A stretch of DNA of 64,000 nucleotides from Loxodes magnus (lineage: Eukaryota > Ciliophora > Karyorelictea > Loxodida > Loxodidae). Position numbers and translations under genes: made by a program. Positions 9,435 to 62,523 of the stretch are shown one piece after another (position 1 is the first letter of the stretch; each line of letters opens with the position of its first letter). The notes beneath the pieces are model-generated. The model made no database searches and was not told the DNA's origin. It was given only the letters and a program-made list of their open reading frames with translations. The stretch lies in assembly GCA_946699065.1 (NCBI GenBank), contig CAMPDV010000359.1:248001-312000 (forward strand), read 5' to 3'.

Positions 9435-12400
9435 TCAGCTCAATGAAAGCCATTCTTCATGGATAAGTCTCTCATTCCTCTCATCCATATACACTTCCTT
9501 AAAATCACATTCATGCACTTTCAAACCATTCCTTCCAATCATCCTCTTAATCGTATAACCCAGTGGACCCTTTGTTGTATCCCATATTTTTATTGTTTTA
9601 TCAGCACTTCCCGATATTAGATACTTACTATCACTTGTTATCGTTAAAGATAAAACGTAAGAAGTATGACCATTTAATGTTCTAAGAAGGTCATAAGTTT
9701 GCATATCCCAAATTTTTATTGTTTTATCCTTACTTGCCGATATTAAATACTTGTTTTAATTTGTTAATGTAAGAGATCTAACAGTTTTAGAATGTCCTTC
9801 CAATGTCTTTAAGAGATCATAAGTTTACATATCCCAAATTTTTATTGTTTTATCCCCACTTCCCGATATTAGTTACTTGTTGTCACTTGTTATCGTAAGA
9901 GAATAAACAGAATCTGTATGATCCTCCATTGTCTAAAAGAGATCATAAGTTTGCATATCTCATATTCTTACTGTTTTATCATAACTTCCCGAAATTAGAT
10001 ACTTATTTTCACTTGTTAACGTAAGAGATCTAACAGAAGAAGTATGACCTTATAGAGTCTTAAAGAGATTATAAGTTTACATATCTCATATTTTTATTGT
10101 TGTATCAACACTTCCTGATATTAGATACTTATTATCGTTTGTTATCGTTAAAGATAAAACTTAAGAAGCATGACCTTTTATTGTTCTAAGGAGACCATAA
10201 GTTTACATATCTCATATTTTTATTGTTGTATCACCACTTCCTGATATTAAAAACTTGTCATCACTTGTTAACGTTAGACATAAGACGATTCAAGTATGAC
10301 CCTCCAATACCTTTAGGAGATCATAAGTTTGCATATCCCAAATTCTTATTTTTTTATCTTCACTTCCCGATATCAGATACTTGGTGTCACTTGTTATCGC
10401 TAGAGATAAAATAGAATCTGTATGACTTTATAGAGGCTTAGTAAGATTCTCTATAAACACATTCCAAATTTTTATTGTTTTATCCCAACTTCCTGATATT
10501 AAATACTTGTTGTCGTTTGTCAACGCAAGAGATCTAACGGTTTTAGTATGACCTTATAGAGTCCTAAAGAGATCATAAGTTTACATATCCCATATTCTTA
10601 TTGTTTCATCCTCACTTCCCGATATTAGATACTTATTATCATTTGTTAACGTTAGAGATAAAACAGTTCGAATATGACCCTCCAATGTCTTTAAGATATC
10701 ATAAGTTTACATATCCCAAATTTTTATTGTCGTATCGTCGCTTCCCGATATCAGATACTTGCTGTCACTTGTTATTGCTAGAGATTAAACAGAATCTTTA
10801 TGTCCCTCCAATGTTCTAAAGAGTTCATAAGTTTGTATATTCCAAATTTTTATTGCTGTATCCTCACTTCCCGATATTAGATACTTGTTGTCACTTGTTA
10901 ACGTAAGAGATAAAACAGTATCTGTATGACTCTCCAATGTCTTAAAGAGATTATAAGTTTTCATATCCCAAATTTTTATCTTTGCATCATCACTTCCCAG
11001 AATTAGATATTTATCGTCACTTGTTATCGTAAGAGATTAAACAGAATCTATTTGACCCTCCAATGTTTTAAAGAGATCATAAGTTTTCATATCCCATATT
11101 TTTATTGTTTTATCCTTACTTCCCGATATCAAATATTTGTTGTCACTTGTTAGCGTAAGAAATCTAACAGAACCTGTATGGCCTGTTATTGTTCTAATGA
11201 GATCATAAGTTTACATATCCCAAATTTTAATAGTCTTATCCTTACTTCCCGATATAAGATACTTGTTGTCACTTGTTAATATTAGAGATAAAACATAAGA
11301 AGTATGGCCCGTTATAGTTGGCATTTAACCAAAATTAACTTATTTCATGTTTGCACCATTGAATTTGCAATTCCTCAGCCAAGCTCTACTAAAATTAGCC
11401 TTATTTAGATTTGAGTTACTTAAATCACAATGATCAAACACCGAATCACATAAATCTGCCTCAGGCACTTATATACTCGATAGATCTTGCTATATAAACT
11501 GATAATCCATCCAATTCAATATTGTTATACAATTAGCAGCCGCCTTTTATAAAGAGGAATTTGATTTTGTCATCATCACTATCTCCAATAGATTTGATTA
11601 AACTTAAGCTGTACAATTAATCTCTCTTATAAACTATTAGATCTCCTTTATATCCACTATTGAATACTTATTTATATTGTGAGTCTCTATTAAATTCAAA
11701 TCATTTTTTACTAGTTTAAGTATTAAACCTATGATATTCTTAGCCACATAGTAATCCCTTATAGAAGCATGAATAAACTCAAATCTCTTTTAATCGTTTT
11801 ACTCTTTTATCTATATCAAGCATCCTATATGATTGGAACTCTCAGTAATTTAATCAATTAATTACTAGATAGTTTAATCCATACTCTCTAACTCTACTTG
11901 CTTCTATAGCATCTAGTAAGCAGCATTTATTTAAATTTCCTCAAATAACGCTTTCAATTTTTTGATTTTTTTAGTGTCGTAACCTAAATTTTCCAACTTT
12001 CCTTATGTCTTTTCATTCCATTTATTAATAAATATCTCATATATCTTTGCCTTTTACACTTTTATGTCAACTCCACTCTTCAAATACTTTACTATTTCTT
12101 CTTCACTCATACATATATATAGCAAAAAGGGATTATTTAAAATTTCCATTAGGCCTGGAATTCTTTAGATTATGCTCATTTATTCTTTAACCTTTTCTTC
12201 CTCTACTTTTGACTATCCATTTGGATCTTGATTTGTATTTTAACTGATACTTTGATTCTATTTCCTTACGACCAACTTGATATATTATTCTATCTATTTT
12301 GGATCAAAAGGCTTGATATATAACTCTTGCAACTCTTGTACTTAAGCTCTTTCACTTTTAAAAGGAGAAAAGTAATGTTTATAATTTTCAGCTGTTAAAG

Positions 12401-14573
12401 CATAATTGATTCTACAAGTAATGATATATTTTGCTTAAGGATACTTAAGGTTTATTTGATTTTTATTTATTATATTTATATATTATCCTAATTCATCATA
12501 TGCATCTAATAGAAACAGTATTTTCCTAAACATCAAGTTTTCATTCTTTACTATTTAGTTGTTCTTTAGAGCAGTTTCTACTAACTTTACTTCAAATTCT
12601 TTTATTGATGGAAGATACACGTATATTGCTAAATATTCATGCTTCTACTCCAGATACTTTAAAGTTAAACTTTTCAAAAACAAAGATTTTCCTGAACCAG
12701 ATTCTCCCAGAAGTAATAAGCCTGTTTTATCCTCCCTGTCTAAAAAGTTCTAAATTTCAACTATGAGATCATTTTAAATCTAGGAACTATGACTAGGAGC
12801 ACATAATAAACTTACGTAATGCTCTTACTTTTCTTAGATCTCATTTTTCAAATAGTTTATCATGTTTTAATATATTTTACTGTCTATACCTTTTAGGGCC
12901 AGCCAATTCTCTTCCATAGTTTAGGTAAAATCAGTAACATGGGCTGGATTCTTAAGTATTTCCACTACTATCTAATGTTCCTTAATATTTTAGTTTAAGC
13001 TTTCATTCTTTTGTTTAAATGTTCTCTCTTTGTAAGTACAAGCTACTATATTATTTTCATTACTTAGTTCTAATAATTATTTCAAAGCAAAGTATCGAAT
13101 CTATCATTCTTTATCCTTACATAATTCTTCTAGAAGTTTGCAAGAGTCCTCTACCAATTCTTGAGTAGCTTATTTGTTTTTTATCATATGCTTCAGAAGA
13201 TAGCACGCCCTAAATCTTAAGTTTTAATTTCCTTATAAAACAATATTTTAGAATTCTACGAATCTTTCTTTGTCATATTACCTTGCTAGATCATATCCAA
13301 GGATATCTAAGGCTTTTAGTTTCAAAATTATCTTCGTATTCATTTTTTCATTTATCCATCCTTTTCCCCATACAAAGAAATCCTTTATTATGCAGATCGC
13401 CTCAGTATCTATAGCTCCAATTCCAAACGACAAAGCAACTCCCCATTAAGCAACCTTTAAAATCTTGCAAAATATACCGAAGTAATCATAATCTTTGTTG
13501 TCTGGAATATTCTCCAATATCATCTAACTGTATCTTAAGTCAAAATCTAACTCTGGACCTCCTATTCTCTTTATATTTACTAATTTTAATCCAGCTTCTA
13601 TTTTTAACATAAGATCCTTTTTCGTTTCTGCACTAATGAAGAAATCATTTTTATCCTCACTTTTAGAAGAGTTTTACTCCTTCTTCTAAAGCAGCATATC
13701 CATCAACTCTGGAAGGTTTCGTACAAGCTACTCCTTCAAGAGCTAAGACCAACCTTCAGTGTATTTATGAGAGATTATTTCTAAAAATTGATTTATAAGC
13801 ACCAAAGGATCATTTATATTGGCCAACTTATTTTTTTGAATGGTTTAAATTCCTTGTAGAACTAATTCCATCTTTTAATAGCTTAAGCCTTCTTTTAAGA
13901 GTTATAATCCTTCTTGATAAACTTTTTACTCCTCAGTAAATAAAATTTTTTATCCTTAATCAACCTTTTTATTGCTTCCTTAGTTTAGGGCTTACTAAGC
14001 TCCTTATGAGCTTTAATTTTTTAGTTATAAAGATTAAGATTCATTTACCTTCGAACTTCCACATCCTCCTCCCTGCAGTTTCATACTTTTTTAAAATTTA
14101 AAGTTTTAGTTTTATTTGATCAGCACAGCTCCTTAACAAGAAGTCATCTAAAAGTTTTCTTTCTGATGATTTGTTTCATTTATCTAAAACTCTTTAACTT
14201 CTAGTATTTCTGCGTTTACCAGATAAGAATAGCTTTGAATCAAGCTAACACTTTCATTACCTTTATAGTAACGTAAAGAGGTTTCTTCTGTTTGTTCATG
14301 AGTATACTTTTCCTCTAATCTTGGTAAAGTTTTTTAGTCTAAAAGCTCATTAAAACTAGATTTTATTATTAGTCTACTAGAACATTAGCACTCAACTTTT
14401 TTTAATGTCTTTTAATCCTTAATATTCGCGTCCGTTTAAAGTTGCTAGCCTAATTCGAGTAAAATATCATAAGATTTTAGAAATCCATATAATTATATTT
14501 AAGACTGAAAATCATCCCAGTTTCTCAGAATCTAACTGAAAATGAAGCAGCTTGAATTTTAGTCTCTAGACAT
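9435..14573 (-). CDS. NLR-like NTPase: HEAT-like, NACHT, pentapeptide and WD40 repeats
   Basis: One frame stays coherent for 1713 codons with TAA/TAG as Gln and at least one TGA as Trp (KDKEWQIRY). Residues 1-220 are Gln-rich and unrecognised. Residues about 230-570 form helical HEAT-like repeats. A Walker A motif, [18 protein letters not shown], lies near 623 and a Walker B strand, [13 protein letters not shown], near 690, as in NACHT STAND ATPases. Pentapeptide repeats ([16 protein letters not shown]) lie at about 1044-1075. Fourteen WD40 repeats of 42 residues follow, then a tail ending EEWLSLS and TGA. Proteins of this plan use nucleotide-driven oligomerisation with the WD40 blades as sensor; here sensing or defence is inference. 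The start at 14573 is the farthest upstream in-frame ATG with protein-like sequence after it; 14084 is an alternative. No frameshift seen in the parts I translated. Confidence 0.85.
9540..11330 (-). repeat. 14 WD40 repeats, 126-bp period
   Basis: Units recur every 126 bp, each with [20 protein letters not shown] and MQTYDL blocks. Fourteen units would make two seven-bladed propellers. Units differ at many sites, unlike the homogenised array at 57.8-60.4 kb. The Trp in IWD is TGG here rather than TGA. Confidence 0.85.
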
Positions 14574-16002
14574 TTTATAATATTTTAGAAGTACAAATTT
14601 GAATATCCAAGAAGATTAAATTAAATGTCAATTATAACTAATTACTCATCTATTCACAAGCTATAATCAACTACTAATTTATACTTCATCAATAACCAAT
14701 AGCAACACCAGATTTATTATAAGATACAACTAATCCATTTATACTAGTCAACCATATCCAAATAGTATTATTATCTCATTATTACCAGCTATTTATTAAA
14801 TTAAATATAATTAAGAATCATTTACGACCATCACCATTGCTTAGTTAAGACCACTCTACCAAGCTGAAATTTAAGACTTAAAACATTAACCAATCACAGG
14901 TCTAAAGAGACTATACTTTAAGAAGACCGAAGAAAAACTCTGACAAAAAGTAACAAGGCAAGCTTAAAAGCTTATTGATTAACTGAAATTTCATAAATTA
15001 AAATTTGTTTAGAGTTATAAAAAAGAGATTTTAATAAACCAATTTTAATTATTTAACTTTTAATTGCTTCTTTATTTATAACTTCTTGACATTAAATTTA
15101 TTTTAAAATCCTCTAAATTTTATAAGTTAAGATCATGTTTTAAATTTATTTAAGCGGAATTTAAAAAAAACTTTAAGATTTCTTAAAAATTGTGTGTCTG
15201 TTGTATAAGGACTTCCATTACGTATTTCATTATTTTCTTACAATAAATTCGTTTGTCTATAATTGTAGTTGTATATACTTTGGTCAAAATAGTGACGCCT
15301 ACTTCTAAAATTAATTTTTTGTATTCTCTTATGCAAATTAAATCTTAAGTTTTTCCCTAGATGCTTTTCTGATTACAAAAGTGAAATCTCTTTTTATTTC
15401 TTAATTATTTTATCTAATTTTTCATTTTCTTAAATCAGGATTTTATTGGTATAATTACATTGAATTATTAGAGTTAATATTACCATTATCATAAAGTTAT
15501 CTTTATTCTATTTAACAATTCTTCTTATCCAGGTTCTTTAAAGCTTACTTATAACTGTTTTTACTTAATGATCCATTAATAATAGATCTTCTATCTTTAT
15601 CCAATAGTAATTTTAGAATAAAAGTAGTATGCTTATATAATTCCATGCAAAAGCTAAATTTAACTGTCATGTTAGAGTTGTTTCAACAGCAATTATTATT
15701 CATATCAATATGATTAAAAAATTATATTTGAGATGTTTATTTTCTTTTAGCTTTAATAATTAGCTCTTAAATAATATCAAATAAGAATCCCTTCTAGTAA
15801 ATTTTCTTACGCTTATCTCTTCTTCCGTTATTTAATGCTTATTTGTAGCTGTTTCTGTATAGTCTGTAGAACTATATAGCATTAGTTTTATAAAATACTT
15901 AGCATTCTATTTTATCTAATAATTTTTGCTTATAAATAAATGAAGACTAATCCTTATAAAAATAATAGGTTAAGATTGAAAAAATTAAATTATTTAAAGT
16001 CA
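14574..16002. other. Intergenic DNA upstream of the NLR-like gene
   Basis: AT-rich. The - strand between about 15.2 and 15.9 kb translates into stretches that look vaguely protein-like in more than one frame, but no frame is better than the others and no motif appears. I call no gene. Confidence 0.4.
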
Positions 16003-29383: not shown

Positions 29384-32300
29384 TCATAGATTACTTTCCC
29401 TTTTTTTTCTAAATGATCTATTTTTAAATTTAAATACTTTCGTTTTAAGAGAAAAATAAGCATTTAATTTGTTCTGGTGTCTTATTTTCCTAGCTTTACC
29501 TAGCTTATTATACATTTTCTTAAATTTGAATGTTTTATGCTTGCTATTCTTATACTTAATCTTCCTATTACTCATGCTTATCCCTATTGGTTTCAATATC
29601 TTCAAAATGAAAAGGACTATAGGTGTTATAATTTTATTAGGTATCTTCATTGCTCTACCTTTTTTCTTGCTTGATTAGTTAGATGATTTTAAGACTTTAT
29701 GATTATCTCGTTTAAATCAATTAAGTAGAATCTGTACATTTATCATTTTTTAAATCTTCTTCTTTTTAATAATTTATAAAACTTTCTTATTTTTTGCTTC
29801 CTTCATGTGTTTAAGCTGTAATTCCCTAAGGTTATAATGGGAAAAATTATTTAATATTTGTGTCTTATCCTTCATTTTATAATCGCTCAGTTTAGGCATA
29901 ATTCTATATTTTATTTTTAGTCTATATGCTTTCATATGATTACAGCATTAAGCTAACCATAAACTATTTTCAATCTTCTTCAGCTTGTACTTATATCTGC
30001 TACAACATAGATTTAGTGCAATACTATAAAATGATATTATCAACTTTCTCTACATCTTTTTAGATATTTTATTCCTATATCTCATTATATTAGGATTGCA
30101 ACTGCTATCTTATATTTTAACTCTTAAAATTAAAAGAGTTATTTAATGAAAGCTTTTAAGTAGCATATTACTGTATATTAGTATGCATCTATTACTTGGA
30201 TTCGTAAATCCTTATTATTCTCTCTAATTTTCTCTTTTGCTTTTCATTATTTGCTTACTCCTCTGAATATTAGGACTTACTATACTGTCTTAGTCAGATT
30301 AGTCAACTATGATAAGAAGTAATTGGGTAAAATTTTTCGTAATCCTGTATTAGTTACTTACCTCTACAAAATATTTTGCTTAGTTCTAATAAAAATTTTC
30401 CTATTTTTATTGGTCTACTATTATCTCTGCGAAATCTAGCTTCTTTATTGCATTGAAAAAAGTATTAATTGGAATTAAAATTAAAATAAGGGAGAGGAAA
30501 ATAGCGAATACTAGATAATATTTTCCTCCGGATCCATTAAAGTGGAAGAAGAAAAATCCACATAATGAGTAAATAAGCATGAAGATAGGTATTTTATCAA
30601 CGTTGCTGATGTTAAGGTAATCAGATATTTAATAAGGCATAGCGTATCGTCTTAAGAGATTATACTTATCAATTCAATAAATAAGCATAAATAAGGCTAA
30701 AACTAAAATGAAACCCAATGGGAAGATTACTGCATAAGCAAAGCAAACTATAATAATTTTGTTTATATCAGTATATCTCTAAGTAATATTAAATTGCTAG
30801 TCTTCCATTATCTTGTTAGCTTCATACTAGGAAACAAATTTGCCATTTTTTAGTTTACGTTTCAGGCATATTCTCTTTATTTTCTTCCAAAAGGAAAAAG
30901 GAAATATTAAACTTAGAAAAATTTCAAGAGCAAAAGCAATGTAACTTTAAAAAATTTTCTCAATTTGCACAAAAAAACTTTGGCTAAAGAATAAAACTAA
31001 GAAAAAGATGAACATTATAAGAGTACCTACCAAACTTTACTATATAGTCTTCTTGTTTGCCATTGACGCTATCAGTTTAGTGTAAGTGTCGTGCTTCTCT
31101 ATTAAGGAAAATTTGTTTATTAAAAACTCGAACAAAATATTAGTAATTTTAATAGCTATTGGTCCTAAGCCTATTATATAATAATTTTGAAAAAGGAAAA
31201 TTAGAAGGGAAGTTCAGAGCCCAAGCGAAACTAAAAAAAATAAAGATGATAATACTTTTTTAAGCTTCTTTTTTCTCTAGGTATATCCGAGATATTCCCA
31301 TTGAATATCACTAGGTTCCGGAGCCATTTCTGCGTATGGATAAAATTCTTCTTTGAACAAACGCTATCGTTAACTACTTAAGCATGAAAGTAATTTTGCA
31401 CAAAATCTTTTGAATCAATACTCGTTTGTACCTCCATACGCTTAAACAACTGCCCAGGCGTCTTCTTATTTCTGAAATGTAACAATCGCTTATTAAATTT
31501 ACTCTTTTTATCGCTCTTTTCCTTCTCCACTATATATCTTCACTTTATTTTAAATTTCTTTCTATAGGGAATCAATTCTTTACTAAACTTCTTCGCTTTT
31601 AGGTGTTTTTCTACATTTTTACAGTAGTTTTTTATACCATGGAATGGCTTTATCCTACGCACTTAAATACTATATCTCTTTTAATTTGATTTACTACTTT
31701 TCTAACTGTCTATATAATTTACAGATTGCATGCAAGTTAACTGGAATTAAGACTTTTTCAATGACTACTTTTTCGTTATTTAGATTCTAGACATTAGTTT
31801 CTAGAAATTATTTTAGTTCTTATTCTTTGATATTTGGTCCAAGATCCCTCAATCAAACCGAATATTTGGAGGGACTAATAATTTTTTGGCTTATCAAAAT
31901 AGAAAATCTTAAGAACTGTCACTTTATAAATATAAACCCTATAAAGAAGATTAAAATTATAAGCAAGTGTAGAATTCCAAAAAATGAAGGAATGTTATAG
32001 TTCATATCTCCTTCTTTTCTATAAGATTCAACTGAGCTTCTTTCTAAAAATCCTTTGTCTTCGTTTTCTCCATTCCATAAGCATGAAAAAAGAATAGGTA
32101 AGTTTAAGGAGAAAGCAATAAGCATTAAATAGATCAAATACTTTAAATAATCAAAATAAAGAGAGAAGCCTATCCCTAGTGGAGCTAATTCACTATTTTA
32201 GCAGCATAATTTATATTTTTCGCCCTCTGTTGTAAAGCCGCAACAATGACATTACTGTTCTTTTGATATTTTGCTTTCATATATTTTTTTCTCTTTTCTT

Positions 32301-32575
32301 TTTCTTATTTTTTTGGCTTTTTAGTGAATGCGTGCTTTTTCGTAATCCGCTCTTTCAGCTCCATTAAAATTTTATAATTCCTATTAAAGAAAGTCTATTT
32401 TTTCTTAATTTTATTGTGCTTCCTCAAATTTCTTAGGACTCTCATTTTAAACAATCTCAAACGTACTTTACTTAACATCAGTCTATGAATAATAACCTTT
32501 CTACTATTGCACCTCATTTTTTTACTCCTCTGGTTGCATCTAAATAACTAGCTAACTATTGCTGTTCATTTGCAT
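29384..32575 (-). CDS. TMEM63/OSCA-type mechanosensitive cation channel
   Basis: The frame is continuous for 1063 residues. Family marks appear in order: two N-terminal membrane segments (about 137 and 200); SPSKYSVWLRDLGP, matching the first strand of the cytosolic RRM-like fold; AIVTFQKQEDAWAVVQAY; EMAPEPSDIQWEYLG near 415, the family's AP-x-D-I-x-W motif before the pore helices; then about eight hydrophobic segments including PLGFILVLALFMLIYWIDKY followed by NLLRRYAMP. The family forms stretch- or osmolarity-gated Ca2+-permeable channels in the plasma or endomembrane. At least six Trp codons are TGA and all stretches tested need TAA/TAG as Gln. A basic C-terminal tail of about 350 residues is longer than usual. 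Start 32575 is one of three close in-frame ATGs (32569 and 32539 also fit). Stop TGA 29384-29386. Confidence 0.85.
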
Positions 32576-32691
32576 TAAAAGTCGTTAGTTCTTTTAAGTT
32601 ATTTTGCTAAAAATTTGACTGACAATAAATAAAAGCATAGATAATCTAATAAGCACTTTTTTTACTTATAAGTTATTACTCATTTATAGTT
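32576..32691. promoter_or_regulatory. Short divergent intergenic region
   Basis: Only about 116 bp separate the start of the TMEM63 gene (-) from the likely start of the membrane-protein gene (+). Both promoters must lie in or overlap this AT-rich gap, so a shared bidirectional promoter is likely. No specific element can be named. Confidence 0.4.
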
Positions 32692-37783: not shown

Positions 37784-40700
37784 ATGAAAGCTATTTTAGT
37801 TTTATTTCTCTTTACTTTGGGACTTTCAGAATTAAATGTTCTAATCTCTGGAGATTAGTATGTTGAACTTCTTCCTTATGAAAACATAACTCTAAAAGCT
37901 AAAGCTTTTTATTAGAATGCCTAAGATATAAAGTACGTATGAACTTGCTAAATATAATAAGAAGTTCTTTAGTATGATGACAAGTTAGTAGATTAGATTA
38001 TAAGAACATGTAGTGCTTAAGGCCCCTAATTACTTATTTGTGCTTAGTCATTTCCAGTAGGAGCTTTTCTTGCTATTACAATAAATGCTTCTACATCTGA
38101 TGGAAGATTTGGACTTAGCACAGTCTAAGTACACATAACTCAAAGCCTTTACTCTCCAGTTTCTATTGGTCTTGAATAAAACGATTTTAATATAGTAAAC
38201 TAAGACTCTTTATTTGTCCTATATGCAAAAGTACGCGATTCTAATTTTCAAATTAAGTAGACTTCTTGAACTTAAAATCCTGGGAATATTGAAGAAGTTT
38301 CACTCTTCGAAACGAACTTAAATTTTATCTTAGTAAATGCTTCTAATCTAAATCAAAGTATGTAATATACTTATGTAATATAAGCATAAAATGCTAATGA
38401 TTTTACTTTCTTTGGTTAAAAGGTAGTTTATGTAAATAATGCTCCTAATTGTGGGTAATTTTTGGTAAGTCCTTAAAGAGAATTAGCATGAGAAACTAAA
38501 TTCTAAATTTAAAGCTTAAAATGCTCCGATTTAGAAGGAAACTATCCTCTGTAGTACCAATATTTTTATCTAACCAAGTCAAGTGAAGAATTGCCATTAA
38601 GCATAGAAAGTGAGCAGTAAGAATGAATTTTTAAGCTGCCTTAGTTTGCTAATTACTCTGACTAAAACTTGATAGTAGGAGTAAGTATATGTGACTAGTT
38701 TGAAAGTTGTACTAAAATGTTATAAACTATCTCAGTGCATAAGTCACTTTGAGATGTTAACTACGAAATACAAAATATCGAATATAGAGTCTTTAATTCT
38801 AGCTTAGAGAAAAAGAACTTTTTATATAACTTAGCTTTAGAAATGAGATAAAGCTCTTAGACTATTTTGAAACAGAATTAGATGGAGCTCTTGAAATAAT
38901 TATCTTCTAATATAAATACACTAGACTAGTAGAAAATAGCAATTTAGGGGTTTTAAGAAATTTATAGATTGATAGAATCTGAAGATATATAGAGATATAT
39001 TAACTACTTAGATAGATGTCTAGATTGAAATGAGAACTAAGAGCTTAAATTTGATTAGTTAAATTATATCATAATAATTATTGATAATCTATTGTATAAA
39101 TAGAGTAAAATAAATTAAAGGTAGATGATAGATGGGTAGCAAATGAAGTATAAAAATGAACGTAACAAAAGTTCCTTAAGATAACTAAACTAACCGAAAG
39201 AATAATTTAAAACAACAATCTGGCAAGTACTATTAAAATCTTCTTTACTTTTTGCAATGTCTAATCCGGTACCTAGTAAATGATACCCCTAGAAGCACTT
39301 ATGATTAAAGTCTAACTTAAATTTATCGATAGAGCTTGTTAGATGAAATCCCTTTTTCTTTGAAGATTTAGTTCCTAATTTTTAAGTTTATCCTATACCT
39401 GATAGAGGACGCTTCTCTATATTAACAAGTTTTAATAATAATCCTTGCGAAGATAGTTCATTAGAAGTGACTCATTTAGGTATAGAGATATACAAAGGCT
39501 GACAAATTATTGATAACAATTCTTGGTCTGGGTTAAGTATTCCCTTGAAAGAATCCGTAAGTACTGATTATACGCTTTATTTCTAAGAAACCAATATCGA
39601 AGAACTTGTATGCTAGATGTGAGATTCAGATCAATAAATCTGAACTAATGAGTTTACATGCTTTTTATAGAAAACAGATGAAGACTTTGTGTACGCTTGT
39701 AAATGTTAAAAATCAGGGATTTTGAGAATAAATTACAAAATCTCTTAAAGTTAGGAAGAGTTTCAATAATAAGAACATGAAGAAGAGTTGGAAGATGATG
39801 AGTCCTATGAGTAAAATATAAAGCCATCTACAAGCTTAGAGGATAATTAAGGCATAAATGTAGATTAATAAAGTTCTGAATATACTTCTAATGAAGAATT
39901 TTATGATAAATCAATTCCATTTTATACACTTCTATGCCTATCCTCGATTTTTACTTTTCTTCAAATATTCTATGTGGATATTTAAAATGTAATAACTTAG
40001 ACAATTAGAATAATACCTAAATTAATTAGTAAGCTCAGGTCAGTTATTCTAACTGATAGACATTATGTGATTATTTATCTCTAACTGGTCCATGAAAAAA
40101 ACTCAGTCTAAAAAAAAAATCAAGTATAACTCAATCCTTTTAATAGATTGAATAATAGCCCAAATTCGCTTTTTTACTAACCTTGCTTACGCTTCTTAAA
40201 GCACTAAGGAAAACAAATTGAATTTTAAAACTTCTTAGTTGCTATATGAATAGCTCTTATAGTAATAATCTGAAAGACTTTAAACATTTGCATACTTTTG
40301 AAGCTTTAAGGTATCTAGCGTTGCTTCGCGTTCAACTAGTAAAAGGCATAGCAGTTACAACCTGGATGAGCTTTAATTTTGACACTGAGAAATACTCTCC
40401 CTGGCTTTAAAGCTTTTTAATCAGCTACTTTCTTTACCTTCTAATTTTGGATCCTATTTTTACATACTTAATAATAAAGCTTATTTCTAAGAAGTACTTT
40501 TACTAGGCTTTGAATCATTATTCTCCAATTCAACCTATAAGTATTCAAAACTCTAGCAGTAATTTAGAGTTATCTAATGTTCCAGTATATTTAGCTTAGT
40601 AAGTATCTTCTAATACTCTAATGAATATCAACAATAACATTAACTAGGAGATTCCATTTATCTAAATTAATTGCTGTATTAAACCTTAAAATTGATAATC

Positions 40701-44490: not shown

Positions 44491-46731
44491 CGAACATTAT
44501 ATAATTTAATTTAATTAATTATTCTTTTAAAGTTTCTTAATTCTCTATTAAATTTTTATAATTATTATATTAATTTTCCCTTAAGCTCTGTTAAGAATAT
44601 AGGTTGTTTATATACTTAAAATTAAAAATAATATACTAATGATATAATAAAATGATATGACTAAATTATAGAAATAATAAAGATAGTAAAACGTTTAAAT
44701 AAATAGATTTATAAAATTATATTATAATATCTTTAAATTAATGAGAAAATAACTTTTTTTTCCTTAACTATCTAAATATTTTAAATGAATGATACATAGC
44801 TAGTTATATATTTTATGAAAGGCATATTTAATACTAAGTATTTAAAGATTCTTTATAAGTATACCTAACTTTGATTTAATTTATTTGTATTTAATAACTC
44901 TTTACTTTCAACGAAGATTATGATAAACATAACTTTTCTTCTATTTGTTTTTTCATTCCGTATAATATTCAAATTATTAATAAAATTATCAATAGATTAT
45001 CCTTTAAAATAAAATTTGTAGATAAATTAAAAATTACAAATTAGGATATTTTTATTATTTACTTAGATTTTTATAGTATTTTTTTATAAATTGTTTAACC
45101 AAATATATTTTGATTATGCTAGTAATTAATTTCATAAATAGATCTTTATTTATAGCAAAGTTGTTTATTATTTAATAACTTTAATCTTTATTTTATCCCA
45201 GTAGTTGCTAAGTAATTATTTATATATACACAAAAATTGATTATTTAAGTTTCTTCTATATATTATCATTATATTGGTAAAATAGTGGAATCATTTTTCA
45301 TTTATAAAATTCTTCTATAGGTATTAGATATATATTCAATTATACTTACTTTTATTAATTATTGACTAAACTTATATTTAATTTCGCGTATCACCTCAAT
45401 AATGCGTAACATTGTAAAAGAAAATAAATAAACTCAAGATATTCTTCCAAGATAATTTTGGTGATAAATGTTCTTCCATTGTTTTTCAATCTCATACTAT
45501 TTTTCTTCTCCAATCTTCTACAGAGTTTCATTATTTACCAGTCTTTCTGCCCTATCCTACATTATATGCTTTTTAGATTTGTTTTCTTTTAATTCCTTAA
45601 ATAATTTACCTATAATCTACTTTTATTTTTACATCATTTATTAACTTAAAATTTAAATTACATAATCAATAGTTTATTATAAACTAAACACTTTTTAATA
45701 TTTTGATATAGAAATATTTATACAAAAAAAATTACAACTGAAGAACTGCCATATCGTTAATCCAACTTAATTGAGGAAATTAAAATGATTACCGAAGTAA
45801 CAAAGACTGATATTGTGTTTAATATATATATATATTATTAAATTAAAAAAGTTTAAATTGGAGTTTAGTGAACTTGGAGGACTTTCAACCTCGTGTTCAC
45901 ATGACCGGTTTGATAACCTGGCTGGAACCTGCTCCCTTCAGAACTCTTTCTTCAGTCGCCTTGGATTGTGTACCACTTCGGTTTGTAGATTTGACCTCCT
46001 GGCGGATAAAATTAGTTACAGAATTCTCGTCTAATCTTATCCTAATATTAGTACTATTATTTTTCTTATTATTTTCTATTCCAGTACTATTATTTAATTA
46101 ATTTCAATTTCTAACATTGTCTATATTTATATTCAGTTTGTTTGCATACAAAGCATCTTGGTTTATTCCCAATTCATTTCTTGTCTGGACTCCTCGGTAA
46201 GATTGTAGCACCATTTTGTGTTTAATTAAGTAAAAAATGAAATAGTAATTTAAATAAATAAAATATTTTAAATAATAGAAAAAATAAAAAATTTTATCTT
46301 TCAAAAAACGAAATTAGAAGATAGAAAGATATTGATATTGCAATTTAGCCCAACTTTTGATAAAACAATATTAAGTATTAAAAGACTAGAAAGAAAAAAG
46401 AATCAGAGAATTTGAAGATAATTACCAGGATTTTATTTAAATAGCATTAGAGCATACATTAAATGATTTGAGATAGAAGAGTCCTTAGGGAGACGGAGGA
46501 AGAGTGTAATTATATACTTTTATCAACTACTCTTGTAAACATATATACATAAAATGCTTATATCAGAAAGAAAAGTCATATAGAAGTTATGAGAGAGGAG
46601 TATATTTGTAGTATGTAGTACATTAAATATACTGTTTATGTTAGAAAGCTTATATTATAAACTTAAATTAATAAGCTAGAAATTATTCTATTGTTCTTAT
46701 TCTTAAACCTGTCTCCATTTTTATAAAAGTA
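44491..46731. other. AT-rich DNA with an unexplained GC-richer island
   Basis: Most is AT-rich and empty. The segments 45870-46060 and 46125-46215 are clearly GC-richer, with blocks such as CTGGCTGGAACCTGCTCCC. They carry short open frames on both strands in several frames, so protein coding cannot be told from chance. They do not match the SINE head or the LINE tail. A structured RNA or an unrelated retroposon is possible. Confidence 0.4.
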
Positions 46732-47858
46732 ATGAAATCAAACTTACAGTTCAAAGAATTAAGTTTGGACGCTGGTATTGAAGAAGCTAGCAAGTCTTGA
46801 AAGGATGGATTTTTCTCCTTTGGAAATGGAGATTGGTATATGAGTTAGTGTGAGAATGATAAAATGTAAGGCTTAGGGGTTTATTATTTTTTGAATGGAG
46901 ATGAGTATAAAGAATTTGAAATAAAGGGAAAAAGGAAGGATTAGGGATTTTGAAATATTAAAATGGGGATTGCTATAAAATATCTTGATTAAACGACAAA
47001 TAGTATGGATAAGGAGAATTATATTGTGCAAATGGATAAGTATTAGAAGGGATATGAATTGAAGGTATCTAAATCCATATCTTTCAAATATAGATGAATC
47101 TTAGTCCAATTTAACAAATCCTTCAAACTAAAATTCCTTAAAATTGCCCAATTAAAATCATAGAAATGATTAGAAATTGAAGATGAAGAATTGATTTGAA
47201 TGTTACAGAAAGGTGAAATAGATGAAGAAGAAGAAATAAACCTTTAATTAATCTAGTTTGAAAAATTGGATAATTTAGATTAAGAATAACTTGATTAAGT
47301 AAATAACTCTAAAAGGGGTGAAAATTAATATACAGTATTAAACGAAGATAGAAAATACGAATGCAAATGCTGTTGTAAAGTTAATTTTATTTCGGAAATG
47401 AAAACTTTATACTGTAATCATCGATTTTACAATGAATGTTTGACATAGTACATTTAATCTTTAATTGACATAAGAAAATTTAAGACTGAAGATATTGTTT
47501 GTCCAGAGTGTAGAGCACCTTTAGACGAAGGAATGTATGGGAATATTGAGCCTAGTATTATCATTCATGCTATTAGTAAAGAGCAGTGAGAAAAAATTTG
47601 TTAATTTAGAATTAACGAAATTCCAAGCGCAATGTAATTATTTAATTTAGAAGATGCCCTCAATAATTTTGTAATAGTAAGTTTGAAATACCCAAAGAAG
47701 CTATTTCTATTTTTTGCATAGAATGTTAAACGATCACGCACTCTATTTATTACGATCGCGAATTGGTATTAAAATTATTTCTTTTATATGTTAATCCATA
47801 AACAAAGCATTTTTAATCTAAATTTTCTACTTTTTATTAAATTCTTATAATCAACTGA
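46732..47858 (+). CDS. MORN-repeat and RING-IBR-type protein, candidate E3 ubiquitin ligase
   Basis: About 369 residues after removing a 17-nt intron (47634-47650). Residues 23-90 hold MORN-like repeats (GFFSFGNGDWY, MQGLGVYYFLNGDEYKEF, GFWNIKMGIAIKYL). A RING-type finger starts near 208: Cys-x-Cys-Cys (YECKCC), then LYCNHRFYNECLTQYI and VCPECRAPLDEG. After the intron comes IBR-like sequence IRCPQQFCNSKFEIPKEAIS followed by IFCIECQTITHSIYYDREL. RING-IBR proteins pass ubiquitin through a thioester on a later RING2 domain; no RING2 is visible before TGA 47856-47858, so activity is uncertain. TGA is Trp at several sites, including 47587-47589. MORN repeats often tether proteins to membranes or the cortex. 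Confidence 0.65.
47634..47650 (+). other. Candidate 17-nt intron in the RING-IBR gene
   Basis: GTAATTATTTAATTTAG begins GT and ends AG. Removing it restores the first cysteine pair of the IBR-like domain (SAIRCPQQFCNSKFEIP) in the same frame as the RING finger. Without removal the domain lies in a shifted frame and lacks its first Cys. Confidence 0.65.
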
Positions 47859-53017: not shown

Positions 53018-53046
53018 TAAATAATAAATAAATAAATTTGATTATA

Positions 53047-53083: not shown

Positions 53084-53090
53084 AAATGTT

Positions 53091-55890
53091 TCAATACATG
53101 TCTATTTCTTCAAGTAAGCCTTCAGGTAATAAAAATTCTTCTCTTATTAGTTCCATATCTTCATCATTTTCTTCTTCAATATCTCTTGTTCTTCTGTCTT
53201 CTATCTATCTACGTTTTATTGATTCTTTGTTACAAGCGTCCATTATTTTTTTTTACATACTTTGCTAATTTTCGTTTCTAATTCTTTTCTTCTTAATCAA
53301 ACTTTTATAAACTCATAAAAACTATCCTTTTCCTGCTCTATAATCTTTTCCTATTTCTTTTTTTCATTCAATTTTCTTTTCTAAGTATCCTTTTTTTTCT
53401 TTTTTCTAATATGTTTTTGATATAATCTTTTATTATCAAGTCAGTTTTAGCTCTTTTTTACTCTTCTTAGATTCTAATGAATTTTTCGAATTTTGCCGTA
53501 CCTCATATTATATCAAATAGTTCCATTCCTTGTCTTTCTACTCCTATTGTTCTTAACTTTCTAATACATATTTATCTATTTTCTTTGTATTCTGAGCATT
53601 TTTCTATGATATGCCTTTCTTTTTCTCTTGCATCATTACAGAAAGGGCATTTGCTTGTCGCAACTAGGTGTCTTTCTTTTAAACAATCCTGGCTCCCATT
53701 ACATCTCGTTCTTATTCTAAATATGTAGCATATTTCTTCTTTTCTATTTTTATTGCATCTCAGGTAATTGGGTGGTCCTACTACATATTCATCAAATCAT
53801 GTTTTTCTATACTGTAGAGTTGTTATCATTTACTCCATTCTTTCTCTATCTTCTATGTATACTCTATGTTCTCAAATTGCACGATTAATGTTTTTCTTCC
53901 TTTTTTGATTATTATTACCATCATCTATAAATATATTTTTGTCTTCAATTTTTAATTCTAATTTTATTGTCGTGCAGTATTGTTCAAAAATAAAGTTCTC
54001 TTCTTTACTTAGGTCGAACATTAATCCATCTACTGTTTTTCCTTAGTTACCTATTAGTCTGCCTCTTAATCTCAGCGTTTTCTGCCATAGGTAATGTTTA
54101 AATTTCATAAACTGTAACTCGTATTCTAGCATCTCATTTTACACTTAGAAAGGGGCATCTATGATTGCTCGTAAAGATTTTCTCTATATTATTTCTAATT
54201 GTTCCATCACTTATTTTCCTACAAATTATTCATAATATGGGATAACTTCTGTCCCATAGCTGAATACTGAGCTTACGAATGTTTTTATCATTATACCTGC
54301 GTTATATGGTGTTAATCCCTTATTCATTGTTATTTTACCCAGTATTCATGTTTACATCTTTTATGCTGCTTCTAGTCTGTTCTCCATGTGTTTTTAAAAG
54401 CTGATGGTTTCTTCTATTATATGCCCTAGGTACTAAAAGGACGTTACTCTTTCGATTCTTAAGTTTTCCACCTCAATAGTATTGCCTATATTTTCTCAGT
54501 TTCTATTTTCTGCTGCTTTTCATATCATTCATTTTGTTTTATCTGCAATTTCCAGTTTGTATTTTTCTGCCCATGAGGTTAAATTTTTGATTACTTCCTC
54601 TAATTATTCTCATTCACTTATTAAGGCTAGGTCATCTGCATATGCAAAACATCCTGCATATATTTCTTGTGTTTATCCCTCTTAGTTTTTAAAGTCTATC
54701 GTAATTCCTAGCTTTTAATATTCCAAGCTATGGAGAAGTCTTGCTATTATTAAGTTAAATAGTCTTGGCGACGTTATGCTTCCCTGTTTTAGTCCTTTAT
54801 TTGTCGCGAATGATTTTGCTATTTATTCATTGATTTTAAGTTTAATTTCTTCTTCACAGTAGAAGTTTGCTAGGAGTTTAATTATCTATTCCGGTACTTT
54901 TAGATCGTTTAGGATTTATCATATATCTTTTCTTTGCACCGAGTCGTACGCTTTTTTAATATCAACAAATATTACGAAAACATCTTTTTTGTTCCGTATT
55001 GATCATTCCTATACTGTTCTTAGGTTGAAAATTTATAGTGAGCATGATTTTCCTTTTTTAAAGCCATATTAATATTCGCTTTCATCATTATGCAGATATC
55101 CTTATAGTTGCTAGAAAATTCATGCATCTACTATTTTTAAAGCATGATTCAGTAAAGAGATTGGTCTATAATTCATCGGGTTCATCTGTCTCCTTTTTTG
55201 TATATTAATATTATGTATTATTATTTCATCTCTTAAGGTATTACTCCCTCTTAAATCATCTTAACTATCATTTTACATGTACTTCTGTTAGTTTTTTCTC
55301 GCCTGCTAATATTGTGCCTACTTGTATTTCATCAGGTCCTGCTGCTTTTCATTTCGCCAATTAGTTGATGATTTCTCAAATTTCATATTCGTTTACCACT
55401 ATTTATCTCTTGTTTAAGAATTTAGTTGGTAGCGTATTATCGCCATCTTCATACAGTTTCTACCATTCATTCCTGAAAGTATTAACATCCTCTTTTAATA
55501 AGGGTACTCATTAATTATTTTTTCTATTAAGTAAGCTTTTTAGTTTCTTTCACATATCTGCTAGACTTCCTTTATTTACATTGTCCATAAATAGGTTTAG
55601 TTAGTTTCTTTTATCTTTTTTTCTTGATTAAATGTATTCTTATCTTACTCTTTGGTATTCTCTTTGATTCTCAATTTATTGATTTTCATTTATTTGTTCT
55701 CTGTTCTTTACCCTTTATTTTAATTGTTTGCTGCATTTTCTAAAGATTTTATTACACTATTTTGTTGTTTCTGAATATTTATATATCTTAGAGTTTTATG
55801 CTTTGAATTTTCCACATACCATTTAAACTCCTTCTTATATCTTTTTCTTTCATCATTTATAAATCTATGTGCTGTTTAGGTTCTCAATAA
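53091..55890 (-). CDS. LINE reverse transcriptase with C-terminal zinc-binding region
   Basis: Reverse-transcriptase blocks follow in order: KAAGPDEIQVGTI near 55330; MNYRPISLLNHALKIVDAW near 55160; FVIFVDIKKAYDSVQRKDIW near 54965 (motif A); NKGLKQGSITSPRLFNLII near 54790 (motif B); CFAYADDLALIS near 54635 (motif C, catalytic Asp pair); SFQYLGHIIEE near 54430. A CPFCNDAREKERHIIEKC zinc-binding region typical of LINE C-termini lies near 53640. The tail is acidic (EEENDEDMELIREEF) and ends at TGA 53091-53093. Catalytic residues are present. The region upstream of the polymerase is helical and Gln/Lys-rich without an identifiable endonuclease. Gln is often TAA/TAG and Trp often TGA, so the element is adapted to this host's code rather than newly arrived from a standard-code genome. 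Confidence 0.8.
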
Positions 55891-56449: not shown

Positions 56450-56830
56450 CTTGTTAATGCGTAGCTCTTTTAATATTATAATTAAAAAAATTTTCTCATA
56501 CTTCTTGTTTTCATTTAGCAGAACAATGAGTCATTGTTAGCTACTCTAAATAGCAATCTACTTATTAGAAATTATTCTCGAATCTTGAACCAAATGCAGT
56601 ATTCTTGAAAAAGAACCAATTAAGAATTAGTAATTAAGTCGTTAATAGGCTAGTCAGTAAAATGTGTAAACTGCTAGAGAGAAATATCGGGTAAAATAGG
56701 TTTACAACTTAAGAACTTGTCAACCGTTCTCCTTGGTTGCATCTAGTGCTAGATTATTCGCAATGCCACATACACTGCATCAGATTAACTATTAGTTCTA
56801 CTAAGCAAACGACATAATTATTTTATATAA
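56450..56830 (-). mobile_element. SINE-like retroposon, long copy 2
   Basis: Full-length homologue of 606-1012 in the opposite orientation, diverged by many substitutions and small gaps. Landmarks shared in order include AGTGTAT, AATCT, GCACTAGAT, TTTTACTGAC, the AAGATT block and ATGACTCATTG. The tail hairpin at 56450-56480 has lost its last bases. Substitutions in the head keep the hairpins paired (see copy 1). Confidence 0.65.
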
Positions 56831-57748
56831 TATTTTAAAACATACTATATAAAACAGAGTAAAAATATTAATACTTTATAGATTAAAAATACTAAATTTT
56901 GAAATTATACTTAGAGAAACAGAAGTTGAAATATATAATCAATTAACAAAGATAATTTTTAAACACTACTTTAGCTTTAACTAAAAAAATGAAAATAAAA
57001 TAATTTATTTAATTTTAAGATTTTAATACTTTTAATTATGACCATAAGTTAAAAGTATTAATTTAAATTCAATGATTATTAACTTTAATTAGAAATAAAT
57101 GAATAAAAAGATTTAAAAGACTAAAATAAATATTAAATGAAAATTGTTGAAATAATAATAAAAATTATAAATTTTTGAAAAAAAAATACTAATAAATTTT
57201 AAGAAAAAATAAAAAAAGGTTTAGTGTCGCTATAAAAATCAAGAAATTGAAAGAAAATAAAATAAGAGTGCAAAAGTAATTTTAGAAACAATTTAACTTT
57301 CATAAAGAAAAAAATTATGTTTTTATAAATTTTTTTACTGATAATGCATGTTTAAAAAAATTAGAAAAAAACAATTTAAAAAAAGTAAAAAAACTTAAAA
57401 AAATATAAAAACCTTTAATGATCTTAAAAACATATAAGTCTTGTAATGTTTGAGTAAATAAAAAAAAATTTATAAATTTTATATCCAGAATAGAATTTGT
57501 CCTAAAAGAAAGTTAAAAAGAATTTACTTTAAAAAACAATAATTACGAAGTCTAAAAATTTTTTAAGAATAAAAAAAAAAAATTTGAATTTTTCTTTATT
57601 TTAGAATAAATTTTTTTAAATAACTTTGTATTTTCAAATAAAATAAAAGTAATGATGAGAAAATCGATTAAATCAAAGTAAGAAATGAAAAAATAAACAA
57701 ACAAATTAAAGAAAAAAAAAATAGAATATGTATGAGAAATTTTAAAAA
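56831..57748. other. A-rich DNA upstream of the WD40-TRP gene
   Basis: Dominated by A runs on the + strand. No gene or motif visible. It must contain the promoter of the downstream gene. Confidence 0.4.
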
Positions 57749-60700
57749 ATGAAAAGGATAAAAATAATTTTTTTGGATCTTTTAGAAATAGATACTATGA
57801 AAGGTCATACAGATTCTGTTTTTAACGTTGCTTTCAGTCCTGATGGAAATAAACTCGCTAGCTCTTCAAAAGATAATACAATTAAACTCTGAAACCTTTA
57901 AACAGTGCAAGAAATAATAACACTCCAAGGACATACAAGCTATGTTTTTAACGTTACTTTCAGTCCTGATGGAAATACTCTCGCTAGCTCTTCTGGTGAT
58001 TAGACAATCAAACTCTGAAACCTTAAAACACTCTAAGAAATAATAACACTCCAAGGACATACAGATGATGTCTTAAACGTTACTTTCAGTCCTGATAGAA
58101 ATACACTCGCTAGCTCTTCAAAAGATAAAACAATCAAACTCTGAAACCTTAAAACACTCTAAGAAATAATAACACTCGAAGGACATACAGATTCTGTTTA
58201 AAACGTTACTTTCAGTCCTGATGGAAATACTCTCGCTAGCTCTTCTTATGATAAAACAATTAAACTCTGAAACCTTAAAACACTCTAAGAAATAATTACA
58301 CTCAAAGGACATACAAATTCTGTTTAAAACGTTGCTTTCAGTCCTGATGGAAATACTCTCGCTAGCTCTTCAAGTGATAAAACTATCAAACTCTGAAACC
58401 TTTTAACACTCTAAGAAATAATTACACTTAAAGGACATACAAACTTTGTATTAAACGTTGCTTTCAGTCCTGATGGAAATACTCTCGCTAGCTCATCAAG
58501 CGATAAAACTATCAAACTCTGAAACCTTTAAACACTCTAAGAAATAATTACACTCAAAGGACATACATATTTTGTTTATAGCGTTACTTTCAGTCCTGAT
58601 GGAAATAAACTCGCTAGCTCTTCCGGTGATAAAACAATCAAACTCTGAAACCTTTAAAAACATTAAGAAATAACAACACTCAAAGGACATACAAATTCTG
58701 TTTTAAACATTGCTTTCAGTCCTGATGGAAATACACTAGCTAGCTCTTCAAGTGATAAAACAATTAAACTCTGAAACCTTAAAACACTCTAAGAAATAAT
58801 AACACTCAAAGGACATACATATTATGTTTATAGCGTTGCTTTCAGTCCTGATGGAAATACACTCGCTAGCTCTTCAAAAGATAAATCAATCAAACTCTGA
58901 AACCTTAAAACACTCTAAGAAATAATTACACTAAAAGGACATACAAACTATGTTTATAACGTTGCTTTCAGTCCTGATGGAAATACTCTCGCTAGCTCTT
59001 CAAAAGATAAAACAATAAAAATCTGAAACCTTTAAACACTCTAAGAAATAATAACACTTAAAGGACATACAAATTCAGTTTTAAACGTTACTTTCAGTCC
59101 TGATGGAAATACTCTCGCTAGCTCTTCAAGTGATAAAACAATCAAACTCTGAAACTTTTAATCACTCTAAGAAATAATTACATTCGAAGGACATACAAAT
59201 TCTGTTTTAAACGTTGATTTCAGTCCTGATGGAAATACACTCGCTAGCTCTTCAAGTGATTAAACAATCAAACTCTGAAACCTTTACACATTCTAAGAAA
59301 TAATTACACTAAAAGGACATACAAATTCTGTTTAAAAACGTTACTTTCAGTCCTGATGGAAAATACACTAGCTAGCTCTTCAAGTGATTAAACAATTAAA
59401 CTCTGAAACCTTTAATCACTCTAAGAAATAACAACACTCAAAGGACATACAAACTATGTTTAAAACGTTGCTTTCAGTCCTGATGGAAATACTCTCGCTA
59501 GCTCTTCTTATGATAAAACAATCAAACTCTGAATTCTAAAAACACTCTAAGAAAATATTGCACTCAAAGGACATACAAATTCTGTTTAAAACGTTGCTTT
59601 CAGTCCTGATGGAAATACTCTTGCTAGCTCTTCTTAAGATAATACTATTAAACTCTGAAACCTTTACACACTCTAAGAAATAATTTCACTCTAAGGACAT
59701 ACAAACTTTGTTTATGGCGTTACTTTCAGTCCTGATGGAAATAAACTCGCTAGCTCTGCAAAAGATAAAACAATCAAACTCTGAAACCTTAAAACACTCT
59801 AAGAAATAATTACACTCAAAGGACATACAAATTCTGTTTTAAACGTTGCTTTCAGTCCTGATGGAAATAAACTCGCTAGCTCTTCAAGTGATAAAACAAT
59901 CAAACTCTGAAACCTTTAATCACTCTAAGAAATAATAACACTCGAAGGACATACAAATTCTGTTTATAACGTTGCTTTCAGTCCTGATGGAAATAAACTC
60001 GCTAGCTCTTCTGGTGATTAAACAATTAAACTCTGAAACCTTTAAACACTCTAAGAAATAATTACACTAAAAGGACATACAGATTCTGTTTAAAACGTTA
60101 CTTTCAGTCCTGATGGAAATAAACTCGCTAGCTCTTCAAGTGATTAAACAATCAAACTCTGAAACCTTTAAACACTCTAAGAAATAACAACACTCGAAGG
60201 ACATACAAATTCTGTTTAAAACGTTGCTTTCAGTCCTGATGGAAATACTCTCGCTAGCTCTTCTGGTGATTAAACAATCAAACTCTGAAACCTTAAAACA
60301 CTCTAAGAAATAATTACACTAAAAGGACATACAGATTCTGTTTAAAACGTTACTTTCAGTCCTGATGGAAATACACTCGCTAGCTCTTCAAAAGATAAAA
60401 TAATCAAATTCTGGAATCTTTAACCTATATATTCTTCTCTTTAGTTTAGGTTTTTTTAGTATTCCGATTTTTTCTAAAAAGTAGTAATTCTAGTTTGGTC
60501 TTTTTTTTTTGCCTTTATAATAAGATTCATTGTTACTTTTACTAAATACTTGGTTCAATTTATTTTCTTCTAACATTTAAATGATATCTTCATGAAATTG
60601 CTAATTTACAAAATTTTTGTTTACTCCTCTTCATTTCTGTTCTTTTTTGGGAAAGACTGAGATTTTAAAATAAGCTATTAAAATCTTTTAAATATAGTTG

Positions 60701-62523
60701 CGTACTGATATTTTTGGCCATTCTCCTCTATTTTATTCTATTTTTTACTAACATTAAAGCACAACTGATTTACTCTTGGATTACATATCTTAACTTGATT
60801 ATAATGAATTTTTAGTTTAAAGAGCTTCATTATAATCTTTATAACTTGATTTTATTGAAATTATACGTAACTCTTCTACTTTTTTGGATAATTTACTTAG
60901 AAATCTATTTTATTTTGACTAAAATCTTCGCGAACATCTTTATGTTCAGTAAGATTAACGTATTAAATTCGCTGACTTTTCTGTTTAAAGTTTCAAATTA
61001 TTTTAGTAGTTAATTCCTTGTGATAATTTATAATAAACTACTTATTAAAAAGATTTAACTCTCAAAACAACTTCTTTGATAGAACACTAATCTAAAGAGC
61101 ATCTTAAAATATGTACATCTTGGTTCAAACTACCTTCTGTAGTTGGATCAGATTAAAGCATTGAACTATTGAATTCATTCTTAGACTCAAAATATAAAGA
61201 TCTATACAAACATAAAATAATAAGAAGTTATATTAATTTAAAGTGAAATTACTTATGATATGTAATCTTTGGTATTTCTTGTTTGATATGACTTAATCTA
61301 TTTCTTATTGTGATTTTGATGATTAAACCTTCTTGCTTTTATTATCTTGCCTTGGTTTTATTGGTGCTAGTAAATGGTTGCTTGCTTGCTTGGGAATTGC
61401 TTTAAATTAGAATAACAAGATTAGATTATTTTAAGGATGCTTGGAATATAGTTGATATTACTAGAATCATTTTTATAATTCCTAGGATATATTTTAGTGC
61501 TTTTGACATCTAAATAGAAACATTTAACTGAATTTTTCTACTATTGAACTTAATGCGTGGAATTATGGCCTTTAGATCATTTGACGAAACAAGATATTAC
61601 TTAAAGCTGATTTTAGATTCCTTTACAAAATAAGATACTTCCTTACTATAATGGTTTACACCACACTGGCATTTGGCCTTCTATATATTACAGCAAAGGG
61701 TGAAGACGTCTCATTTAAAAGCTTATGAATTTCATCTTTTGATTTGATAGCAGGAGATTCAGGAGTATTTGATAGGGAAGGATTGGATATCATATATACC
61801 ACATTCCTGTTAGCTGTTATTTTAAATGTAGTGATAATGCTTAATATGATAATCTCTATTCTAGGAGATTCCTTTGATGAGTTTTAAATTTAGCAAGTCT
61901 ATTATGACTATAGAGAAAAGACTTAAGTTCTTCTTGAGATAGAACAGATCCTTTCCTTATTAAATCCAGAAAATAAGGAGTAATATCTTCATATTTGTGA
62001 TAATTATTATCATGAAGAAGGTTTTGGATGGGAAGGAAAAGTTGCAGATGTAAGAGAGTGCATCAAAAAGACTTAAGATAAAATAAACGAAAAATTGATT
62101 AAAACACTAAGAAATTAGATACTCTTGAAGGGAAAATACTAAGAATGATACTCTTAAAGCAAATAATGGTATATTAAAATACTCTTGAGAAAACAACCAA
62201 AGAAATAGAGATTCTTAAGACTTAAACAAGCTCTATGGATGAGAAGATGAATTCTATGAAAGGAAAGATGAATTCTATGGATGGAAAGATGAATTCTATT
62301 GAGGAGAAAATCCAAGAAATAGATATTCTTAAGACTTAAACAAGTTCTATTGATGGGAAGATGAATTCTATGGATGGAAAGATTAATTCTATTGAGGAGA
62401 AAATGAAAGAAGTCGAACTTCTTAAACTTCAAACAAGTTCTATCGATAAAAAGAATGGACTCGCTTGAAGAAAAACTGGACTCCCTTATTGGGCTGCTAA
62501 ATGCAAAGTCCTAAATAAAATGA
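57749..62523 (+). CDS. WD40-repeat/TRP-type cation channel fusion, frame interrupted
   Basis: The N-terminus [20 protein letters not shown] opens into 21 WD40 repeats (57803-60420). A linker with [20 protein letters not shown] follows, then a six-helix channel domain from about 61270: [77 protein letters not shown], a pore loop [18 protein letters not shown] and S6 [19 protein letters not shown], the TRP/polycystin hallmark. A repetitive coiled coil ([14 protein letters not shown]) ends NAKS before TGA 62521-62523. Family members are non-selective cation channels gated by cytosolic domains. Six apparent single-base shifts lie near 59330, 59362, 60455, 61625, 62105 and 62447, mostly in A or T runs; the first three sum to zero. 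Either the gene is decaying or these are sequence errors. Confidence 0.8.
57803..60420 (+). repeat. 21 near-identical WD40 repeats, 126-bp period
   Basis: Starts of GHT fall at exact 126-bp steps, except one step of 128 bp between 59315 and 59443. Consensus blocks are [24 protein letters not shown] and TLQEIITL. The Trp of LWNL is TGA in the first 20 units and TGG in the last. Differences concentrate after GHT, before NV, at Ala/Thr before FSPDG, at Thr/Lys in GNT/GNK, and at the residue before DKT. Silent sites are almost identical, so the array was recently amplified or is being homogenised. Twenty-one units fit three seven-bladed propellers. Confidence 0.9.

Follow-up and report, generated by a model that had tools for sequence, protein, structure and literature searches.

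The stretch of DNA analysed here (the window) comprises 64,000 nucleotides (nt), positions 248001-312000 of contig C359 in a Loxodes magnus assembly of 705,730,643 base pairs (bp) in 7,843 contigs, and profile and pattern searches were run on the contigs of this assembly. The window is very probably macronuclear DNA of L. magnus translated with the karyorelict nuclear code, in which UAA and UAG would be served by Gln tRNAs, and at UGA a tRNA-Trp(CCA) with a 4-bp anticodon stem would compete with an altered eRF1. NCBI translation table 27, with TAA and TAG as Gln and TGA as Trp or stop, is stated for karyorelicts including Loxodes in the available sections of PMC11441545, which also give the size of the macronuclear assembly of L. 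magnus as 706 Mbp. The code itself was already known, and the present analysis is an independent confirmation of it from DNA. An earlier note on the window had proposed this code and a Loxodes-like karyorelict as the source; the residue test and 30 of 34 conserved gene ends agree with the first proposal, and the second was right, as assembly size and code both match.

For the residue test, TAA, TAG and TGA were all masked as X to keep the alignment from favouring an answer, and four proteins were aligned to solved structures: part of the WD40 gene of the window and, from outside the window, two actins and eRF1. TGA fell on Trp at 11 of 13 sites, TGG at 8 of 12. TAA fell on Gln at 17 of 38 sites (two of the 38 on gaps) and on Glu at 2, and TAG on Gln, its commonest residue in a small sample, at 4 of 16 and on Glu at 2, while the controls CAA and CAG fell on Gln at 4 of 13 and 0 of 3. 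The rough binomial chance was 1e-15 for TGA with Trp, 3e-13 for TAA with Gln (36 ungapped sites) and 0.007 for TAG with Gln. By these alignments TAA and TAG behave as CAA does, and TGA as TGG does, which bears out both codon assignments of the earlier note. In the window itself, stop-to-stop frames of at least 150 amino acids numbered 206 under table 6 and none under table 11. TGA at a conserved Trp was seen in a run of 21 WD40 repeats of 42 codons each (57800..60447, + strand), where the invariant Trp was TGA in 20 repeats and TGG in one (60412), the same count as noted before.

The gene ends in the window were weakly anchored, so TGA as a stop was examined in conserved families from the rest of the genome, with the stop codon anchored by conserved C-termini. 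In total 34 ends were read: 12 from 96 actin/Arp matches (ten picked across the ranking before the ends were seen, plus the actins L095 and L096), 20 from 21 matches of LC8 dynein light chains, and those of both eRF1 copies. In 30 of them TGA stood at the conserved end or close behind it; TAA took this place in two and TAG in none. TGA lay 0-2 codons past the conserved C-terminus in 8 of the 10 sampled actin/Arp ends, in L095 and L096 (2/2) and in 18 of 20 LC8 ends; for the two eRF1 copies (2/2) it came just past the aligned portion. The role of TGA as a terminator, claimed in the earlier note, was thereby upheld, although TGA may not be the sole terminator, given TAA at two Arp1 ends. The 42 nt downstream of the 30 TGA stops had a GC content of 0.198; for L. 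magnus, values of 33.5% in coding sequence versus 18.6% in the 3' untranslated region (UTR), with a mean 3' UTR of 53 bp, are given in the part of PMC11441545 at hand. Back-up TGA codons after the stop showed a weak excess (10 of 390 in-frame codons vs 5 of 360 and 7 of 360 for the two remaining frames). A TGA-G stop context, suggested by the first four stops, all TGAG, was rejected, since the base at +4 of the 30 stops was G in 11, T in 11, A in 5 and C in 3. In the two eRF1 copies a second in-frame TGA lay three codons past the stop, and the flanks further out had diverged.

Both meanings of TGA could be read within single genes. In actin L096, TGA was the codon of two conserved Trp and also stood directly after HRKCF; the nearer sense TGA lay 36 codons before the stop, and a Trp only 20 codons upstream of it was TGG. 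In LC8 gene L129, TGA occupied a Trp-like position in the stretch PVWNCVVGRNFG, which we take to be an LC8 motif, again 36 codons before the TGA stop, and this was the nearest sense TGA to any anchored stop read (L129 and L096). Where LC8 genes had a Trp among their final codons, it was TGG in 7 of 7, with p about 0.004 against the gene segments of the window; this value ignores kinship, and one of the TGA counted for those segments lies beyond a candidate stop. Coding UGA and UAA, not UAG, are depleted over the last 20 or so codons ahead of stops in L. magnus (PMC11441545, sections available), and the LC8 and actin ends read here are compatible with this published depletion of UGA near stops. 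For specialists, these actin and LC8 paralogues may be of use, since within a single protein the sense TGA and the stop TGA lie a fixed distance apart.

An ordinary ciliate code (table 6) would leave TGA as a stop only and explain the in-frame TGA by pseudogenes, sequencing errors or introns. The gene with the 21 WD40 repeats, which continues into a channel-like segment, does have frame changes, and the 43 best actin matches were without internal TGA, as this explanation would have it. However, a stop-only UGA fails at the conserved Trp positions of the 20 WD40 repeats, at the two in actin L096 and at the Trp-like site of L129. Internal TGA was also found in 4 of 21 LC8 matches, three of which still reached the last profile position with E values of at most 1.2e-20. 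We therefore regard table 6 as very improbable. In the 43 highest-scoring actins, which were near-identical, and in the 30 best tubulin matches, TAA and TAG were present in frame but TGA was absent, whereas many divergent paralogues carried one to four in-frame TGA, some none. Highly expressed genes may avoid TGA, which could account for the TGA-free top matches, the copies not being independent.

Several observations weigh against the karyorelict code as stated above. Of the 13 TGA, two faced a template residue other than Trp, both within a single variable region of actin L096. Of the 11 that matched Trp, nine belonged to WD40 repeats of one gene and were non-independent, and the other two lay in actin L096. 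The evidence on TAG consisted of 16 sites. Among the ends, LC8 gene L117 had TGA only at the seventh codon and TAA at the fifth, and L127, a weak match of 31 bits, was without an end TGA. Many of the actin and LC8 genes were paralogous (two LC8 ends were identical), so the counts were not independent. Finally, two Arp1 paralogues had TAA exactly at the conserved C-terminus. One (L105/L107; L107 at C10:669500-670300) ended in HSKTF-TAA and the other (L106/L108; L108 at C193:129250-130050) in HYKTC-TAA. The best matches of L107 were Arp1/centractin chains, and its alignment reached residue 369 of a 370-residue chain, which places the TAA at the Arp1 C-terminus.

UAA termination in Arp1 is likely on this evidence, if unproved, and the statement that UGA is the only stop may be incomplete for L. 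magnus. The code was reportedly established for the class by Seah et al. in 2022, in a paper whose abstract is said to mention a small minority of transcripts with perhaps a UAA stop. A code nearer that of Condylostoma (table 28-like), in which UAA too can still terminate near 3' ends and two codons are ambiguous, comes a little short of an even chance. It would account for two diverged Arp1 paralogues ending at TAA with tails unlike each other and a fall in GC across the TAA, from 0.357 to 0.207 in one and from 0.326 to 0.233 in the other, and for the depletion of coding UAA, not UAG, before stops (PMC11441545, in the sections available). Against it stand the 34 ends, with TGA at or near 30 of them, and the origin of both TAA cases in one gene family. 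TAA is moreover common in AT-rich DNA, the rough chance of TAA in both Arp1 genes being 0.004 for the exact position and 0.03 if a span of three codons is allowed. The next in-frame TGA lay 23 and 40 codons past the TAA in L107 and L108, respectively, so that a tail of this length, read through to TGA, might instead close the two proteins. Whether UAA still acts as a stop can be tested directly on these two Arp1 genes.

Candidate decoding tRNAs were found for all three codons. The pattern of tRNA-Trp(CCA) gave 128 matches in the genome versus 6 for the reversed control. Two head-to-tail arrays (loci L010-L038) were seen, one at C67:482323-491201 with 48 matches and a unit of about 187 bp among the matches listed, and another at C148:155464-168698 with at least 49 matches and a unit of about 241 bp. 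The same 30 bases were present in 97 of the 100 tRNA-Trp(CCA) matches listed. ARAGORN drew a 4-bp anticodon stem for the C67 copies, with A27 and C43 unpaired, and among its calls there, made on overlapping loci, one sequence accounted for 402 of 407 and a shorter variant for 5; the C148 copies are presumed to have a 4-bp stem too. One divergent tRNA-Trp(CCA) on C110 (L130) had a full 5-bp anticodon stem and a weak T stem. A 4-bp-stem tRNA-Trp is reported for Loxodes (NAR 2026 and G3 2025, citing Swart et al., in the portions available), while no report of its amplification or of a 5-bp copy was found in the literature excerpts at hand or among the papers listed on tRNA in Loxodes and on tRNA arrays in ciliates. 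Amplification is not special to Trp, since tRNA-Lys and tRNA-Ala were also multi-copy, some in arrays.

The pattern of UUA and CUA anticodons gave 274 matches versus 36 for the control. L092 and L093 folded as tRNAs with a TTA anticodon, and candidates with a CUA anticodon were many by sequence pattern; both kinds are presumably charged with Gln. A tRNA-Trp(UCA) was not found with one nuclear pattern of single spacing (53 matches vs 48 for the control). A 24-copy repeat with a UCA loop and a tRNA-like T loop was dispersed or in tandem on C336 and 12 other contigs; it was rejected as a tRNA because a pairing anticodon stem was present in 1 of the 24 copies, about the level of chance.

Two copies of eRF1 were located on C196 (L040 and L041). 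Compared with human eRF1, L040 kept GTS and NIKS and carried the changes E55A, T58R, S60Q, S70A and Y125F. The stop-recognition motifs are given as GTS, Glu55, TASNIKS, Ser70 and YxCxxxF, with Ser70Gly in Blastocrithidia, in the available portion of PMC12153298, and the literature excerpts at hand contained no mention of these residues of Loxodes eRF1. The best match to the eRF1_1 profile, L039, was rejected as eRF1, reading by eye as Pelota. With this, the tRNA and eRF1 parts are now listed for L. magnus, which may be of use to specialists.

Blastocrithidia nonstop is similar in part of this machinery. A 4-bp-stem tRNA-Trp(CCA) is common to both, as is a change at human Ser70, to Gly there and to Ala here, and a code of the Blastocrithidia type, with UAR as Glu, UGA as Trp only and UAA as the stop, might be considered on these grounds. 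Yet Gln exceeded Glu in the residue test for both UAR codons, and nearly all gene ends examined carried TGA, not TAA, so this code has hardly any probability left. In the accounts available, the 4-bp form is the only tRNA-Trp of Blastocrithidia, whereas L. magnus also has one 5-bp form.

For the karyorelict code, the parts found would work together as follows. UAA and UAG would be read as Gln by the tRNAs with UUA and CUA anticodons, and UGA as Trp by the abundant 4-bp-stem tRNA-Trp(CCA), a reading suggested by published work on such stems. Near the 3' end of an mRNA the altered eRF1 would outcompete tRNA-Trp and lead to termination, the changes in eRF1 being those listed above, and competition and poly(A) proximity being proposed in the literature. 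The earlier note had treated the separation of Trp UGA from stop UGA as an open question; it had already been addressed by a published model in which tRNA and eRF1 compete and proximity to poly(A) matters (Swart 2016, as far as available), and the depletion of UGA and UAA near stops had also been reported. The present data fit this model and cannot prove it. More tentatively, and with rather less than even confidence, UAA and UGA might both be context-dependent stop/sense codons, balanced by gene dosage: some 100 or more copies of the 4-bp-stem tRNA-Trp beside a single 5-bp copy reading mainly UGG, versus an eRF1 with five changes in or adjoining the stop-recognition motifs. If true, this would explain the depletion of UAA but not UAG before stops.

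Among known codes, table 27 (Loxodes, Parduczia and others; Seah 2022, Swart 2016 and the L. magnus genome of 2024) is alike in UAA and UAG as Gln, in UGA as Trp or stop and in AT-rich sequence past the stop; sense UGA near a stop was not seen among the LC8 and actin ends read. It differs in that the two Arp1 genes here appear to end at UAA. Condylostoma magnum (table 28) is alike in reading all three stops as amino acids and, in the available accounts, in reading UGA as Trp with no tRNA-Trp(UCA) found and in terminating by 3' context. UAA and UAG are also stops there, whereas in L. magnus TAG was seen at 0 of 34 ends and TAA possibly at 2.

The coding segments of the window were located with a small codon hidden Markov model and then read. 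Ten of them were run against Pfam, which supported WD40 in both WD40 genes, PHM7_cyt in a TMEM63-like gene, REJ in a polycystin-like segment and RVT_1 in two segments of long interspersed nuclear elements (LINE); the NACHT, GPS, channel and TMEM63 labels are tentative, given by eye or from general background. A NACHT-like and WD40 gene (9435..14528, - strand) matched WD40 profiles and had five in-frame TGA before its candidate stop, three of them at WD40 Trp; the Trp codon was TGA in 3 of 13 matched repeats and TGG in 10. Its candidate stop TGA lay at 9435..9437, with the last sense TGA 175 codons upstream (9962) and no homologous C-terminus as an anchor.

The TMEM63/CSC1-like gene (30303..32593, - strand; PHM7_cyt 32.8 bits, cut-off 27) carried TGA at 31921, 31855, 31417, 31216 and 30676. 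The TGA codons placed at Trp of KWQF, VWLR and YWID in the earlier note were confirmed in frame (31921, 31855 and 30676), while conservation of these Trp found no backing, as the protein with all three codons as X gave no template match among solved structures. Its candidate stop TGA (30305-30303) was uncertain; it followed a 17-bp intron-like stretch (GT...AG, 30345..30361), the reported mode of intron length in L. magnus (PMC11441545, sections available), and a further 18-bp intron-like stretch lay just beyond. For the intron motif CTAAT, the window showed no enrichment (7 matches vs a Markov mean of 4.65).

The polycystin-1-like segment (38531..39898, + strand; REJ 25.6 bits, cut-off 25) had a GPS-like motif in which both Trp were TGA, as claimed before, at 39620 and 39641, slightly left of the 39640-39670 given then. 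A LINE reverse transcriptase segment (53941..55887, - strand; RVT_1 118.4 bits) contained 8 TGA and 6 TGG in frame. Downstream of the 21 WD40 repeats lay a TRP/polycystin-like channel segment (61130..62094, + strand), assigned by eye, and two channel segments of the window gave no Pfam match. The candidate stop TGA of this WD40-channel gene (62521..62523, + strand) was reached only through several frame changes and was without a homologous C-terminus as an anchor. The frame changes occurred at A runs (59335-59362, about 61640 and about 62450) and look like indels from assembly or sequencing, or like decay of the gene. The claim that the same window genes end at TGA thus kept plausible candidates at 9437-9435 (-) and 62521-62523 (+), both unanchored, and an uncertain end in the TMEM63-like gene.

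At 46348-47766 a gene resembling a RING-type ubiquitin ligase was recognised by eye, for which Pfam gave only a sub-threshold, unrelated match. Elsewhere in the genome, long arrays of near-identical WD40 repeats were observed on C1503, C119, C9 and C620, some with TGA inside the repeat unit.

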